Assembly (NCBI RefSeq): GCF_900112755.1
Contig: NZ_FOMW01000015.1
Span: forward strand, 1 to 64,000
DNA length: 64,000 bases
Reading direction: 5' to 3'
From: Sulfitobacter brevis
Lineage (GTDB): Bacteria; Pseudomonadota; Alphaproteobacteria; Rhodobacterales; Rhodobacteraceae
Below the pieces are notes generated by a model that had not been told where the DNA came from, ran no database searches, and worked only from the letters and a program-made list of their open reading frames with translations. A program made the position numbers and the translations under genes. Every line of letters begins with the position of its first letter. Positions within the stretch are counted from its first letter, which is position 1. Below, one piece after another: positions 10,750-15,205 of this stretch.

Positions 10750-10978
10750 GAGCGAGCTGCGTATCCGCTATCCATATCGACGAGGCGAAAGGCCAGCGCG
10801 GCGATCTGCATCCCCGAGACTACCCCTGCCTCGCGGGCATTCAGCCGTGCGGTATAGCGGGCTTCAGCGGGGATCACCGTGCGGGTGGTGATGTCACCGT
10901 AGGTTCCTAAATCCTCCATCAGCGCGGCGCGGACCAGGGGTTCAAGGATCAGGTCGGGCAGGGGGGGGCTTGTGTCAT
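10750..10978 (-). pseudogene. nadC: nadC remnant (nicotinate-nucleotide pyrophosphorylase N-terminus)
   Basis: An ATG at 10978 overlaps the nadB stop (ATGA) and is followed, after a frame change, by LPDLILEPLVRAALMEDLGTYGDITTRTVIP and ARLNAREAGVVSGMQIAALAFRLVD, the N-terminal domain of quinolinate phosphoribosyltransferase. The frame changes in a run of eight C residues (10961-10968 on the plus strand as G). Similarity stops after about 60 residues, well short of the usual 280 or so. With truncated nadB and no nadA, this is a dead fragment. The homopolymer shift alone could be a sequencing error, but the truncation could not. Confidence 0.8.
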
Positions 10979-11713
10979 GTCGTCTCCATTTGCGGGGTGG
11001 TGGGCATTGCCTGCGCCTCGGCCAAGGTCTGGAAAGAGCGGCTGCCAATTGCGCTGCAAGTTTCGGGATAGTCCGACCGGAAATGGGCGCCACGACTTTC
11101 GCATCGGTTCAGCGCCCCAGTGGCGATCAGCGTGGCCGTGGCGGTCATGTTCAGCAGGGCGGTGCAAGTGGGCTGGGCCACTTCGATCTCCGCAATGTCG
11201 TCAAGGGTTCGCTGCAAACCTGGCGCGTCGCGGATCACCCCTGCACCATCGGTCATACTTTGCCGCAACCGCGCCACGAGGGTGGGGTCGGGCACCTCGG
11301 CAGCGTCCAGATTGGGCAGGGTGTTCGTAGGCGCGTCTGTGGGGCTGGCACCGAGTGCTGCGTCTATCGCGACCGCGCAGCGTTGCCCGTAGACCAAAGC
11401 CTCCAACAGCCCGTTCGAGGCCAGCCGGTTCGCCCCGTGCAATCCGGTCGATGCCGCCTCGCCACAGGCCCAAAGACCAGGCAGGGAGGTTTGGCCGGTA
11501 TGGTCGGTCGCGATGCCCCCCATGTGATAATGCGCAGCGGCGGCAACAGGGATCGGATCGGTCAGCGGGTCCAGTCCTATTTTTAAGCAGGCTGCCGCGA
11601 CCGCAGTAAAATCGCGCAGCACACTAGTGCCAAGCGCCTGCCGTGTATCCAGCGCCGGAGCAAGGCCCGCCTGCGTCTGGGCAAAAACGCCGCGGGCCAC
11701 GATGTCAACGCCG
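10975..11713 (-). pseudogene. nadB: nadB remnant (L-aspartate oxidase C-terminal half)
   Basis: About 245 codons correspond to the C-terminal half of L-aspartate oxidase, the FAD enzyme that starts de novo NAD synthesis. Recognisable parts are DIVARGVFAQ, HYHMGGIATD, LPGLWACGEAASTGLHGANRLASNGLLEALVYG and the C-terminal helical domain. The N-terminal FAD-binding half is missing because the frame runs into the left end of the IS21 element near 11711. It cannot be functional. Presumably an intact nadABC copy exists elsewhere in the genome. Confidence 0.85.
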
Positions 11714-11790
11714 GACTAAAATTGCACCAGTCGCCGGAGCAAAAGTGCGCCACTTTTCTGGATTTTGCCGGACCAATATTGCGCCACCTT
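11711..11790. repeat. Terminal direct repeats of the IS21 element
   Basis: Three related units starting GCCGGACT, GCCGGAGC and GCCGGACC occur within 80 bases, each with GCACCA or GCGCCAC about 15 bases later. These are typical transposase-binding repeats of IS21 ends. Confidence 0.6.
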
Positions 11791-12328
11791 GTTGAGTTTA
11801 GGTTTGTCCATAGCCCCGCACGGCGAAGTGCCCCCACAGAGCGACGAAGCTGTGCGGGGCTTTGGTCAAACCGGTAGCGTGGATTGTAGTTTAAGCTCTT
11901 CCCGATTGACGGCTGTGTTTCAGGCGGTAGCTCTCTGCGTTCATTTCGAGGATGTGGACGTGGTGGGTCAATCGGTCGAGAAGCGCGCCTGTGAGGCGCT
12001 CAGACCCGAAGGTGCTGGTCCATTCATCGAACGGCAGGTTGGACGTCACGATGGTTGATCCGCGCTCGTAGCGCTGCGAGAAGACCTTAAACAGCAGTTC
12101 AGCGCCGGTTGGTGATAGCGGCACATATCCCAATTCATCGATGATCAGCAGGCTGTATTTGCTTAGTTGCTTCTGCAGACGCAGCAGGCGCTTTTCATCT
12201 CGTGCTTCGAGGAGTTCATGCACGAGAGCGGATGCGGTGATAAAGCCGACGGCCAAGCCCTTCTGGCAGGCCGCCAGTCCAAGGCCGAGGGCGACATGCG
12301 ACTTGCCGGTGCCGCTGTTTACCACGGC

Positions 12329-12355
12329 GTCATGTCAAAGACATGCCTTTGGCAT
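12329..12355. repeat. 27-nt tandem-hairpin insertion A in istB
   Basis: This is a compact element with CATG at 12331, 12342 and 12353, a constant 11-nt period. It can fold as CATGTC-AAA-GACATG (12331-12345) followed by ATGCC-TTT-GGCAT (12343-12355), or as one stem CAAAG/CTTTG around ACATGC. Its removal restores the istB frame from NENII to NSGTGKS; in place it adds nine codons including TGA. It matches the element at 13175-13201 at 21 of 27 positions. Confidence 0.75.
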
Positions 12356-12540
12356 GATGATGTTCTCGTTGCGGGTAATATAATCACAGCGTGCCAGCTC
12401 CATCACCAGCATCTTGTTCAACGAGGGCATGGCCTTGAAGTCGAAGCTGTCGAGGCTTTTGGTGGAGGGGAACTTCGCAGCCTTGATCCGGCGTTCCACC
12501 ATGCGCCGTTCCCGGTCGATGAGCTCCAGTTCCACTCTCA

Positions 12541-12567
12541 GGCATGTAAACATGCCCTGCCGTGCAG
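12541..12567. repeat. Double-hairpin insertion B in istB
   Basis: Two abutting perfect hairpins are seen: GGCATGT-AA-ACATGCC (12541-12556) and CTGC-CGT-GCAG (12557-12567). They lie where istB changes frame between RYLLRLA and ELELIDRERR, residues that are adjacent in intact IstB proteins. The foreign stretch is about 37 bases, not a multiple of three. It also has two CATG words but is not the same sequence as insertions A and C. Confidence 0.65.
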
Positions 12568-12706
12568 CGGGCAAGGCGCAATAGATAGCGGGAATGATCG
12601 ATGCCTTCTGTCGCGCTTTGTTTGGCAACTTTGTCATACTCACGCAGGAACGTCGGCAGGCGCAGGGCTTTTAGGTGATGGGCCAGTAACAGCTGGGGCG
12701 TGTCGG

Positions 12707-14232
12707 TCATAACCCGCCTCCTGACAGAAGCGCCATGTAATCGCTTGGCGATGTGACGGCGACATAGGCTCTCGGCAGGTAGGGATAGACCGTCAAATCC
12801 AGCCGGGGCGGTCTGCGTTCGATCCGGCACAGCACCAAATGCTTCACGGCGTCAAAGCCAATCGTGCCGCGATCAAGGGCGCTTTGTATTCCGGCCTCAA
12901 CATCCGCGATCTGGAATGTCTCCAGCAGCCGCAGAACCTGAACGAACTCGCGTTTGCCCTTTTTACCCATCCGGGCTTCCATAAGCCGACGCAGGATGAT
13001 GTAGGCTTCAGGTAATTCCCAATCGGCCAGTGGGGCTGCCTGATCAAGCGCATTGGTCTTCTGTTCGATCAGCGCCAGATAATGAAGCGGGTCATAGATG
13101 TAATCCTCCTTCTCCCAAGAGCGAGGATGCCGGGCGATGACGTCAGCGCCGCAGGCAATCATCACCTCATGCACGTCATGTCGGAGACATGCTTCCTGCA
13201 TGATGCCCGCACCAGAACTTCTTGGTGACCGAAAGCTGTTGGAACAGAATAATCGTTGCCGCGATAGCGCACGAGGGACAATGAACTGACCCGAACCGAT
13301 TGCTTGTCGCAGGCGTCATAAGGAACAGCTGGCAGGGGTTGAAGCCGGCCCGCATCGGCCTCAAAGCGTTCGCCAATCGTGCCCTTGTGACCACGTAGCT
13401 TATCGCCCATTCGCTTGCGGCATTGGTCGGCCAGATGGACATTGAGATCTTCAAAGCTGGCAAACTGCGGCTTGGGCACCATGAAGTTGCGGCGAGTGTA
13501 TCCCACCATCCCTTCGACTTTGCCTTTATCATTCCCTTTTCCAGGGCGGCCAAAGCGATCCTCAAACAGATAATGCGACACCAGCTCCGAGAATACGCGG
13601 GTGCGTTTGCGCTGGCCGTTCCCCAGAATGCGGGCCACGGCAATCCGGATGTTGTCGTAAAGGATCGACACAGGCACCCCGCCGAAGAACGCGAACGCCG
13701 CAACATGTGCATCACAGAATGCTTCCGTCGTCTCGGCAGGATAGGCTTTCAAAAAACACGCATCCGAATGCGGCAAGTTCATCACCGAAAAGTGGATCTT
13801 GCGCTCGACACCACCAATCACGGCAAGCGCCTCACCAAAGTCCGCCTGCGCATGACCCGGAGGATGCGACAAGGGCACAAACATCTCCCGCTGGCGCTGG
13901 CGAGCCGCAAAGATGTAGTCCTTCACGATCGTGATGCCGCCGGTAAAATCATACTCATTGCGAAGCCGCTCAAAAACCCGCTTCGATGTATGCCGCTGCG
14001 TCTTTGGAACCAGCCGGTCTGCCTCAAGGATCTGATCGATAATCCCGATAAAGTCATCCAGCTTCGGCCGCCTGATCTCTTTGTCACGCCGGTAACCTGG
14101 CGGGATCGAAGACATCAGCATCTTCTCAACAGTGCGACGATTGATCCCGAAAAGACGGGCCGCTTCGCGGCGGCTCATACCATCGACAAGAACAGCGTGA
14201 CGAACGCGCCCATACAAATCCACGTGCTTCAA
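12707..14232 (-). pseudogene. istA: istA, IS21 transposase, interrupted
   Basis: IS21 DDE transposase. From a TTG at 14232 (a GTG three codons later is an alternative) it has a helix-turn-helix (MSRREAARLFGINRRTVEKML) and the catalytic core with Asp in QADFGEA (about 131), Asp in SILYDNIRIAV (about 193) and Glu in GNDKGKVEGMVGY (about 241). The first frame continues to FGHQEVLVRA and then shifts at 13175-13201, where a 27-nt tandem hairpin is inserted; the second frame resumes with VHEVMIACGADVIARHPRSW and runs to the stop at 12707. Catalytic residues are intact, so only the insertion prevents a normal product of about 500 residues. Confidence 0.85.
13175..13201. repeat. 27-nt tandem-hairpin insertion C in istA
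   Basis: CATG words lie at 13177, 13188 and 13199, giving the same 11-nt period as insertion A. Folds visible are CATGTC-GGA-GACATG (13177-13191) and ATGC-TTCCT-GCAT (13189-13201). It interrupts istA between EVLVR and VHEV and changes the frame. The differences from insertion A fall in the loops, and the change AA to GG at element positions 9-10 is matched by TT to CC at 21-22. Confidence 0.75.
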
Positions 14233-14284
14233 TCCCGCCCCCCGCCAAAACGAAGAGCTTAACAGGACAGGCCATTCAGCCAAT

Positions 14285-14604
14285 CTGCGACAAGACGATC
14301 TTGCCGCTCACCTGGTGCAGTATTCCACCGGCGTTCTCAAATTCGTGCGCGAGATGCGTTGGTTTTGGATGGGACCCCGAGAAAATTAGGATTAACACGG
14401 TCTGTCCGACCTCTATCCGCACATCCTTGACTGATGCCACCTTCGAAAACCCAGAGCGGGCCAAATGGATTACTGACAAAATCAAGTTGGGCCGCGTTGG
14501 CGAAGTTGAAGATATCATGGGAGCTGTCGCATATCTGGCATCAAACGCCTCTGCGATGGTGACAAGCACATCACTGCTGATTAATGGCGGGTGGACAGCA
14601 GATC
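14285..14604 (+). pseudogene. Short-chain dehydrogenase remnant (C-terminal half)
   Basis: A plus-strand stretch encodes KIRINTVCPTSIRTSLTD, ITDKIKLGRVGEVEDIMGAVAYLASNAS and LLINGGWTAD, the C-terminal region of classical short-chain dehydrogenases. Just upstream, in a different frame, QYSTGVLKFVREM resembles the active-site helix, but the YxxxK motif is incomplete. The N-terminal Rossmann half is absent and is cut off at the IS21 right end. The natural stop after GGWTAD is lost, so the frame reads on to 14762. Clearly broken. Confidence 0.75.
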
Positions 14605-14665
14605 AGGGCGTTTGGTCCCCGGGGGGTTTTCTATCGAACGCGGATTGCACGGTGCTCGATACGGG

Positions 14666-15205
14666 TCAGGGAACAGGTTTTAACTGTTCTTCGAAAAAGG
14701 CCAATGCGGCCGCGCTGTCCCAATCCGCAGGGCCCGGCTTGCGACCTACTTCTCGCCCTTGAGGATCCAACAACAAAGTAGTCGGCATTGCAAAGACACC
14801 GAGGGTGCGCATCGCAGCACCGGTTTCGTCAATGTAAATTCCGGATTCGTCCAAGTTGAGCTCTTGGTAGAGTGCCTTCACGTTCAAAAGCTTACCGGAA
14901 TCCGTTGATAACGCGAAAACTTGGAACTTGTCTCCTCCTAGCGCTTGTTGCAATCCTTGCAGGTCAGGCAACTCCTTGCGGCAAGGCGGGCACCAAGTCG
15001 CCCAGACATTCAGCAGAACGTATTTTCCTGTGAAGTCCTTAAGTGAAAGCAGGTTGCCGTCTGCATCCTCAAATGCAATCTCTGGCACCTTTTTTGGTGT
15101 AGCATGCATCGCAAAGCGAAAATCAGTGGCGTCAGCATGCGCGGCTCCAGAAATCGCTGAAAATGAAATTGTCACCAAGACGATCGTTCGTAGGAACTGC
15201 TTCAA
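14666..15205 (-). CDS. TlpA-like thioredoxin-fold protein, exported
   Basis: A 179-residue TlpA/ResA-type thiol-disulfide protein. A TTG start at 15205 is supported by AAGGG six bases upstream and by the 4-base TTGA overlap with the upstream gene's stop. Residues 1-24 form a signal peptide or anchor (KQFLRTIVLVTISFSAISGAAHA). The redox motif is WATWCPPC with cysteines at 72 and 75, and the cis-proline region is AMPTTLLLD. The protein probably acts in the periplasm, reducing cysteines of a partner. The translationally coupled upstream protein has a CTCC cluster and is the obvious candidate partner. Confidence 0.88.
   Translation of the reverse strand: MKQFLRTIVLVTISFSAISGAAHADATDFRFAMHATPKKVPEIAFEDADGNLLSLKDFTGKYVLLNVWATWCPPCRKELPDLQGLQQALGGDKFQVFALSTDSGKLLNVKALYQELNLDESGIYIDETGAAMRTLGVFAMPTTLLLDPQGREVGRKPGPADWDSAAALAFFEEQLKPVP

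Follow-up and report, generated by a model that had tools for sequence, protein, structure and literature searches.

Small hairpin units that insert into resident DNA have been described in both organelles and bacteria. The double-hairpin elements of Allomyces mitochondria are mobile and consist of two adjacent hairpins, with a size similar to that of the inserts considered below, and the byp elements of Magnusiomyces mitochondria are short hairpin inserts lying within reading frames. The GC clusters of yeast mitochondria (GC42) are tiny palindromic mobile units that occur in stand-alone and merged forms at one site; their mechanism of movement is described as unsettled (PMC4478555). In bacteria, the CGTC-tagged repetitive extragenic palindromic (REP) sequences, which include the Rickettsia palindromic elements RPE-4 and RPE-6, are palindromes of 20-40 nt, common in alphaproteobacteria, that start with CGTC-AT and are sometimes intragenic (Di Nocera 2013, PMC3733652). 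According to that paper, no dedicated transposase is known for them and their few associations with transposase genes are fortuitous, while Y1 enzymes are the proposed movers of the GTAG REP sequences. The DNA analyzed here (the window) is a stretch of 64,000 nt from Sulfitobacter brevis (contig NZ_FOMW01000015.1, positions 1 to 64,000). In an IS21-type insertion sequence (IS) of this window, the genes istA and istB are interrupted by three short hairpin-bearing inserts: A1 and A2, which belong to one family (A), and B, which represents another (B). We propose, with a probability of roughly three in four, that these inserts are non-autonomous miniature hairpin mobile elements, moved by an enzyme that we leave unnamed, which survive in dispensable, hitchhiking IS DNA.

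The insertional origin of A1 is settled. A second IS21 copy in the same genome (C67:3083-4886), which matches the window copy in two blocks of 94% and 99% identity with an internal deletion between them, lacks exactly positions 12329-12355: the filled GGC-GTCATG...GCAT-GATGATG is matched by an empty GGC-GATGATG. The original prediction, made from the letters of the window, had held that removal of these 27 bases restores istB, and this close copy without them bears it out. It had also placed a second 27-nt element in istA. A2 does break istA; for its length, comparison with diverged IS21 homologues (65.6-68.9% identity) suggests a net gain of 26 instead of 27. Both elements interrupt genes, as predicted, in two different ways: A1, with a length divisible by three, breaks istB through a TGA stop without shifting the frame, and A2 causes a frameshift in istA. 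The third insert had been missed, as had the existence of more than one element family and the involvement of several IS families. Omitting 37 nt at insert B joins RLLRLA to ELELIDRER in istB, and among 20 distinct homologues listed the site is empty in 18, has a B insert displaced by a few bases in L034 and holds another hairpin stretch in L027 (here and below, L and G numbers label loci and genomes). From the stop and the frameshifts it follows that the three inserts silence istA and istB, one of the outcomes considered in the original prediction. All three are antisense to both genes in the orientation used here. When the whole IS21 was compared with 295 genomes of the family Rhodobacteraceae, isolated matches of 28-45 nt appeared, among other short matches, at A1, at A2 and, most often, around 12526-12580.

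Direct comparison confirms that the two A elements have 21 of 27 bases in common and that CATG occurs three times at N7 spacing, exactly, at 12331-12356 and 13177-13202. The window holds no other match to CATG-N7-CATG-N7-CATG even with one mismatch, and the rest of the genome holds one, apparently unrelated. By itself this pattern is only moderately unusual, because 0.29 matches per window are expected by chance with one mismatch allowed and 5 of 100 shuffles contain two or more; the decisive evidence is comparative and comes from the sister IS21 copy. Structure was assessed in an alignment (A11) of 29 sites chosen from 76 matches, many of these being both strands of one site, which leaves out among others L071, L077-L081, L138, L147 and L148. 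Across its members the two overlapping CATG hairpins covary, with 14 and 8 double-changed cells, values that none of 500 shuffles reaches; the numbers of pairs with double changes were reached by 67 and 64 of the 500, and those of pair types by 500 and 469, which is no excess. Covariation thus supports the overlapping hairpins of the original prediction, though the energy fold differs: at minimum energy A1 forms a single 13-bp hairpin on the plus strand, the one that reads CGTC. This long hairpin was rejected as the structure of family A, for energy favors it and covariation does not (186 of 500 shuffles score as high). One argument for conserved structure is not borne out, namely that AA to GG is accompanied by TT to CC: the bases lie in the loops of the two overlapping hairpins, and the long hairpin, in which they do pair, has 4 double changes against a shuffle mean of 4.0.

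A covariance model of family A (R1), trained on six copies, detects matches in 34 of the 295 Rhodobacteraceae genomes. Strong matches, by our own cut of at least 47 bits, occur in five: the genome of the window, G002, G153, G262 and G159. (Searches with R1, or with the family B model R2, over more than 40 genomes score few candidates per genome, and the copy numbers are floors.) At the R1 search threshold, family A is present in its own genome only in the IS21 of the window, so this IS probably picked up its A elements elsewhere. A Pseudosulfitobacter plasmid carries one A copy between annotated genes. At L070:1501-1538 an A element is immediately succeeded by a B-like stretch (CCTCTC-hairpin-CCTGCCGGCAA).

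Family B has a fixed layout: CCCCTCTC, a self-complementary hairpin of freely variable sequence and of variable length, CTGCCGGGCARYG, and then the GATG-like target. In 39 chosen genomes, picked mostly for having matches, a gapped pattern of the two boxes gave 230 matches (a few of them unpaired or double-counted) in 34 genomes, against 3 for a reversed control. A folding energy of -6 kcal/mol or lower is reached by 119 of the 147 distinct stem segments, as opposed to 20 after one shuffle each, and many of the long forms have one unpaired base after the third pair. Alignment of 57 distinct 37-mers, 42 obtained through the structure model, which favors pairing, and 15 through the box pattern alone, shows 94.6% of cells paired, compared with 18.6-52.5% in slid registers; its 57 double-changed cells are equaled in none of 500 shuffles. 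Pairs with double changes (reached in 106 of 500 shuffles) and pair types (25 of 500) are less striking. Energy folding of B yields z-scores of -0.22 to -1.33 and would not by itself have brought the structure to light; covariation was decisive.

Empty sites define what a B insertion does to its target. We chose 14 B sites for this comparison, an IS3 relative, L165, being used there; 12 have at least one empty homologue, and L091 and L156 have none. When empty copies of three B sites were sought on plasmids, mainly partial relatives turned up, and it was genome searches that supplied the empty sites. In an IS1182-type gene, eight homologues are cleanly empty, a ninth (L172) is empty in an unclear alignment, and L089 and L046 are filled, with a net gain of 37 after GTY. 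The gain tracks stem length, being 37 in the short form and 38-40 in L108, L115, L122 and L133. At targets formed by a conserved tryptophan codon (TGG), the base that precedes GG is T in homologues and C in filled copies (L045, L137, L270, L108). As the filled copies carry the element's own C at the place of that T, a 38-nt B unit starting with C would appear to replace one target base. By our reading, the loss at the 5' end seems to differ by a base in either direction in L052, L053 and L106; the 5' junction looks slightly imprecise, the 3' junction constant and precise. Neither A1 nor B shows a target-site duplication at its empty sites, and the ends of B are not inverted repeats, which sets these elements apart from miniature inverted-repeat transposable elements, with their terminal inverted repeats and target duplication. 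Over 110 collapsed B sites, mostly drawn from a pattern that requires GATG, information in the flanks is confined to the element's C and four target bases, with no target context visible beyond GATG; both R2 and the pattern used across species include part of the GATG flank and inflate its apparent strength. At 59 less biased sites the four target positions read G in 49, A in 28, T in 36 and G in 40, with exact GATG in 15.

The same targets have been hit more than once. Our 119 B sites (116 loci; three loci among the 119 B stretches yielded no new site) represent 72 target positions, 19 of which were hit repeatedly, often with different hairpin sequences. L132 and L328 carry different hairpins at one and the same base, yet their identity is 69%, compared with 79% between L132 and each of the empty L026 and L258. 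For L045, also filled, the closer relatives are L324 and L379, which are empty, and the more distant ones L137 and L270, which are filled. With empty relatives separating the filled ones, B insertions have recurred independently at these two sites. The suggestion that A1 and A2 are mobile micro-elements comparable with Rickettsia palindromic or mitochondrial double-hairpin elements is thus well supported by an empty site, by dispersal and by independent hits on the same sites.

R2 (70 of 87 matches kept, 69 with distinct flanks) detects family B in 101 of the 295 Rhodobacteraceae genomes. Outside this family B is rare: in a 289-genome sample of the class, five genomes match, three of the four Rhodobacteraceae together with G487 (three copies) and G298 (stem not visible). 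A collection with one genome per species (84,980 species) contains at least 119 B stretches; of the 80 with titles, we take 75 to be from Rhodobacterales by name, and the others come from Vreelandella, Acetobacteraceae, Hyphomicrobiales and two unplaced alphaproteobacterial bins. Two IMG/VR viral contigs (L381 and L382) carry the exact family B pattern. In G108 (L044, L129, L149, L154), a conserved GAGTTTRTYTRGCAAGATGAA-like tail comes after the B elements and may represent another composite repeat.

Comparison of istB in L027 brought out a third family (C). Its insert there is about 40 nt long (L027:1902-1945) and has the core CGCCATTGGTCCGAGNGACAATGGCG; relatives are found in L046, L127, L022, L355 and L081, several of them in transposase genes and sometimes beside B, and in some, such as that of L081, both strands of the stem have changed. 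Two such hairpins lie, together with B, in the IS1182-type gene of L046/L167. A further hairpin-bearing stretch in istB, L027:2120-2164, has no second copy among the loci compared. Families A and B also meet in a composite repeat of about 150 bp, intergenic in appearance, with the arrangement ..CCAAATCGCC..[A or B]GATGCGCGGCGG..TTGATTCCGCGC (L038, L058, L138-L145, L277, L299, L308, L331); by our reading the middle slot holds A in several genomes and B in L277, L299, L308 and L331.

Could A be a CGTC-tagged REP sequence that lies by chance inside an IS, and B an unrelated structured RNA or terminator? Family A does start with CGTC followed by AT, as those REP sequences do (PMC3733652): in A11, GTC is invariant and the first base is C in 26 of 29 rows, so that the terminal CGTC (or TGTC, CCTC) tag is present. 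It also occurs, in G002 and G153, in the intergenic-looking composite repeat. The likeness goes no further. In place of an unpaired tag and a single stem of 8-9 bp that has AT first and a loop of 4-5 nt, A has two overlapping 6-bp hairpins with 3-nt loops and a tag able to pair, which in the energy fold it does with GATG/GACG; the short unpaired tail, mostly CCA, is also missing, CCA following in one of the 29 rows (L073). B has no such single-stem layout. The GATG flank is common to A and B, which by our reading also use one slot of the composite repeat. An Rfam scan of 11600-14400 returned three matches, all under the curators' thresholds and none covering the inserts. We therefore consider this explanation unlikely. 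A further difference is that host genes here are often transposases, compared with the few fortuitous cases reported for CGTC REPs (PMC3733652). In the broad class of mobile hairpins to which REP sequences, Rickettsia palindromic elements and GC clusters belong, our inserts take their place as dispersed sequences with filled and empty homologous sites. They share with the Allomyces double-hairpin elements, as these are described, paired adjacent hairpins and size. With the GC clusters, as presented in PMC4478555, they share tiny palindromic mobile units that stand alone or merged at one site; they differ in having no target duplication, a GATG-like flank and transposase genes as hosts. In the literature searched, mostly without subscription papers, the family A, B and C strings turned up in unrelated contexts only, and topic searches of titles and abstract beginnings, with mostly the same coverage, returned no description of such inserts.

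Family B is concentrated in transposase genes of several IS families. Among the open reading frame (ORF) halves flanking B that were our first choice (n=108), the top Pfam models are rve (15), rve_3 (9), rve_2 (8), HTH_21 (7) and DDE_Tnp_1 (6), followed by IstB, DDE_Tnp_1_5 and DUF4096 (4 each); among 25 of their 32 families, the only ones of neither transposase nor helix-turn-helix type are impB/mucB/samB (1) and two glycosyltransferase models (1 each). All 22 families of the second-choice halves (n=100) are of transposase or helix-turn-helix type. In a control with one random GATG/CATC per locus, taken more than 1.5 kb away, 106 ORFs gave 87 families, and the 25 of these considered mostly have roles in metabolism, transport and information processing; transposase-type models among them are rve (2), IstB (1) and IS66 transposase (1). 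A cautious floor for transposase hosts is 31 of the 108 first choices (rve, DDE_Tnp_1, IstB, Mutator, IS66), if no protein matches two of the summed models. By eye, about 63 of the 119 B sites lie in transposase genes, about 37 of them in sense and 26 in antisense orientation; 11 of the 119 have no usable ORF. IS family names and orientation counts reflect our recognition of protein motifs, and Pfam transposase or helix-turn-helix models support seven host genes. One could envision a system, encoded by the host or a plasmid, in which transposons are inactivated through hairpin modules set into their transposase genes at GATG-like sites. The marked preponderance of transposase genes from several IS families would suit such a system, as would the presence of multiple inserts per IS; 23 of 119 loci have at least two B-type elements within a 2-kb stretch (by a loose motif without stem check). 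However, GATG alone cannot tell transposase genes apart from others, two groups of B sites look intergenic (a 10-locus site and the composite repeat, with 7 sites), and a search that went no further than Y1 enzymes found no candidate; we regard this alternative as quite unlikely.

The fate of an interrupted gene can be followed in an IS3 of G013 (L383-L388), whose six full-length copies are about 99% identical and all match the B pattern. In the one copy read closely, three inserts match the motif and a degenerate fourth was recognized by eye; none of the remaining five copies shows a gap when aligned to it. In the coding pieces of the six copies the ratio of nonsynonymous to synonymous changes (N:S) is 11:3, against a neutral 3.36:1. 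Being so close to neutral, this ratio suggests, from the few changes available (14), that the interrupted gene is under no selection though it has spread; by our reading, a transposase that is no longer present, or that goes unrecognized, moved it in trans. These observations bear on ribosomal bypassing, which the original prediction had left open. Ribosomes skip an insert in T4 gene 60 and at yeast-mitochondrial byps, and the interrupted transposases might still be produced in this way. Coding pieces beside the inserts are often otherwise open, and the best remaining hint is this IS3, with six filled copies and no empty full-length one. A bypass element would be expected in the sense orientation alone and in a host gene that stays functional; family B in contrast occurs in both orientations, the three window inserts are all antisense, and the G013 gene drifts near neutrality, with no signs of bypass. 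Bypassing thus appears very unlikely.

Our proposal brings together several observations: dispersal, clean empty sites, a target preference, covarying structure, repeated hits, insertion in both orientations and concentration in transposase genes. A non-coding element of about 27-45 nt with two short hairpins would enter directly 5' of a GATG-like tetranucleotide and, within a gene, act as a plain knock-out. Selection would remove copies in cell genes, and those in ISs and intergenic DNA would persist. Filled ISs might still be mobilized in trans and carry their inserts between replicons and genomes, which would explain why the IS21 of the window holds three. The least certain step is the enzymatic one, in which the folded single strand of the element, or its RNA, might be recognized in the manner proposed for REP sequences and yeast mitochondrial GC clusters. 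A structure kept above sequence, a short target and a variable 5' junction would fit either an enzyme whose substrate is a folded single strand or RNA copying primed at the target. A Y1 enzyme of the kind associated with IS200-IS605 or REP sequences (RAYT) was considered as the mobilizer and rejected: Y1_Tnp is found in 11 of the 39 chosen genomes, without flanking element ends. Given this distribution and the missing paired ends, we leave the mover unnamed and treat the element as non-autonomous.

Several points weigh against this proposal. Mobility is deduced from comparing sequences, and the search for a mobilizing enzyme, aimed at Y1 enzymes, did not find it. G013 and G067, both rich in B copies, yielded no Y1_Tnp, and a scan of 17 Y1 loci revealed no paired element ends, only single boxes near L246, L249 and L251. 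Loss of one target base, seen at few sites, is unusual for Y1 enzymes. Mobilization in trans by an intact sibling predicts empty copies of the G013 IS3, and no full-length one was found in its genome, unless the sibling has been lost. In the IS1182-type gene, the filled L089 and L046 are 74% identical to each other and L089 is 70-73% identical to empty relatives, values that do not distinguish one insertion from two. It is also worth considering that the bias for transposase genes may come from targeting rather than from survival.

The IS21 itself lies between two gene fragments (the table gives the coordinates of its parts). On one side (10975-11700) is a C-terminal fragment with FAD_binding_2 and Succ_DH_flav_C domains, which we take to be L-aspartate oxidase-like; on the other (14301-14762) is a fragment of a short-chain dehydrogenase. 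Because both neighbors are fragments, the position of the IS may mark a rearrangement. Its end at 11709-11786 contains three imperfect 21-nt repeats (CGCCGGA..AAA.TTGC.CCA), which presumably resemble IS21 terminal repeats.

Table. Parts of the interrupted IS21 and its inserts, in window coordinates
Feature	Position	Strand	Basis
IS21-type insertion sequence, istA and istB on minus strand	11702..14300, ends approximate		Pfam rve, Mu-transpos_C_2, IstB_IS21; second own-genome copy
istA N-terminal piece, stops at insert A2	13202..14283	-	ORF list, Pfam
istA C-terminal piece, different frame	12707..13173	-	ORF list; Pfam Mu-transpos_C_2 resumes at profile position 42
istB N-terminal piece, start approximate, stops at insert B	12570..12712	-	Joined reading RLLRLA^ELELIDRER
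istB middle piece, inserts B to A1	12356..12531	-	Pfam IstB_IS21 37-97
istB C-terminal piece beyond insert A1	11891..12327	-	Pfam IstB_IS21 101-237
Insert A1, family A, CGTCATGTCAAAGACATGCCTTTGGCAT	12328..12355 (net +27 at 12329-12355)	+	3' flank GATG 12356-12359; exact 27-nt gap in sister copy; relatives in other genomes
Insert A2, family A, CGTCATGTCGGAGACATGCTTCCTGCAT	13174..13201	+	3' flank GATG 13202-13205; net about +26 vs diverged homologues; relatives in other genomes
Insert B, family B, slightly degenerate, C CACTCTC-hairpin-CTGCCGTGCAGCG	12532..12569 (net +37 at 12533-12569)	+	3' flank GGCA; R2 62.4 bits (not independent, as this copy was among those used to train R2)

It is tempting to speculate, though we hold it doubtful, that Rhodobacteraceae have an active process that writes folded modules of 28-45 nt, from single-stranded DNA or RNA, before GATG-like bases, with one base replaced and the stem sequence free as long as it pairs, and that this would amount to an effective silencer of ISs throughout the family, by targeting or by selection. 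With a stem of free sequence between fixed boxes, a four-base target and filled and empty sites in large number, the inserts allow the movement of palindromic micro-repeats to be tested directly in marine bacteria that can be cultured. Finally, the inserts split transposase genes in annotation, and IS pseudogenes of Rhodobacteraceae may thus have a recognizable cause.
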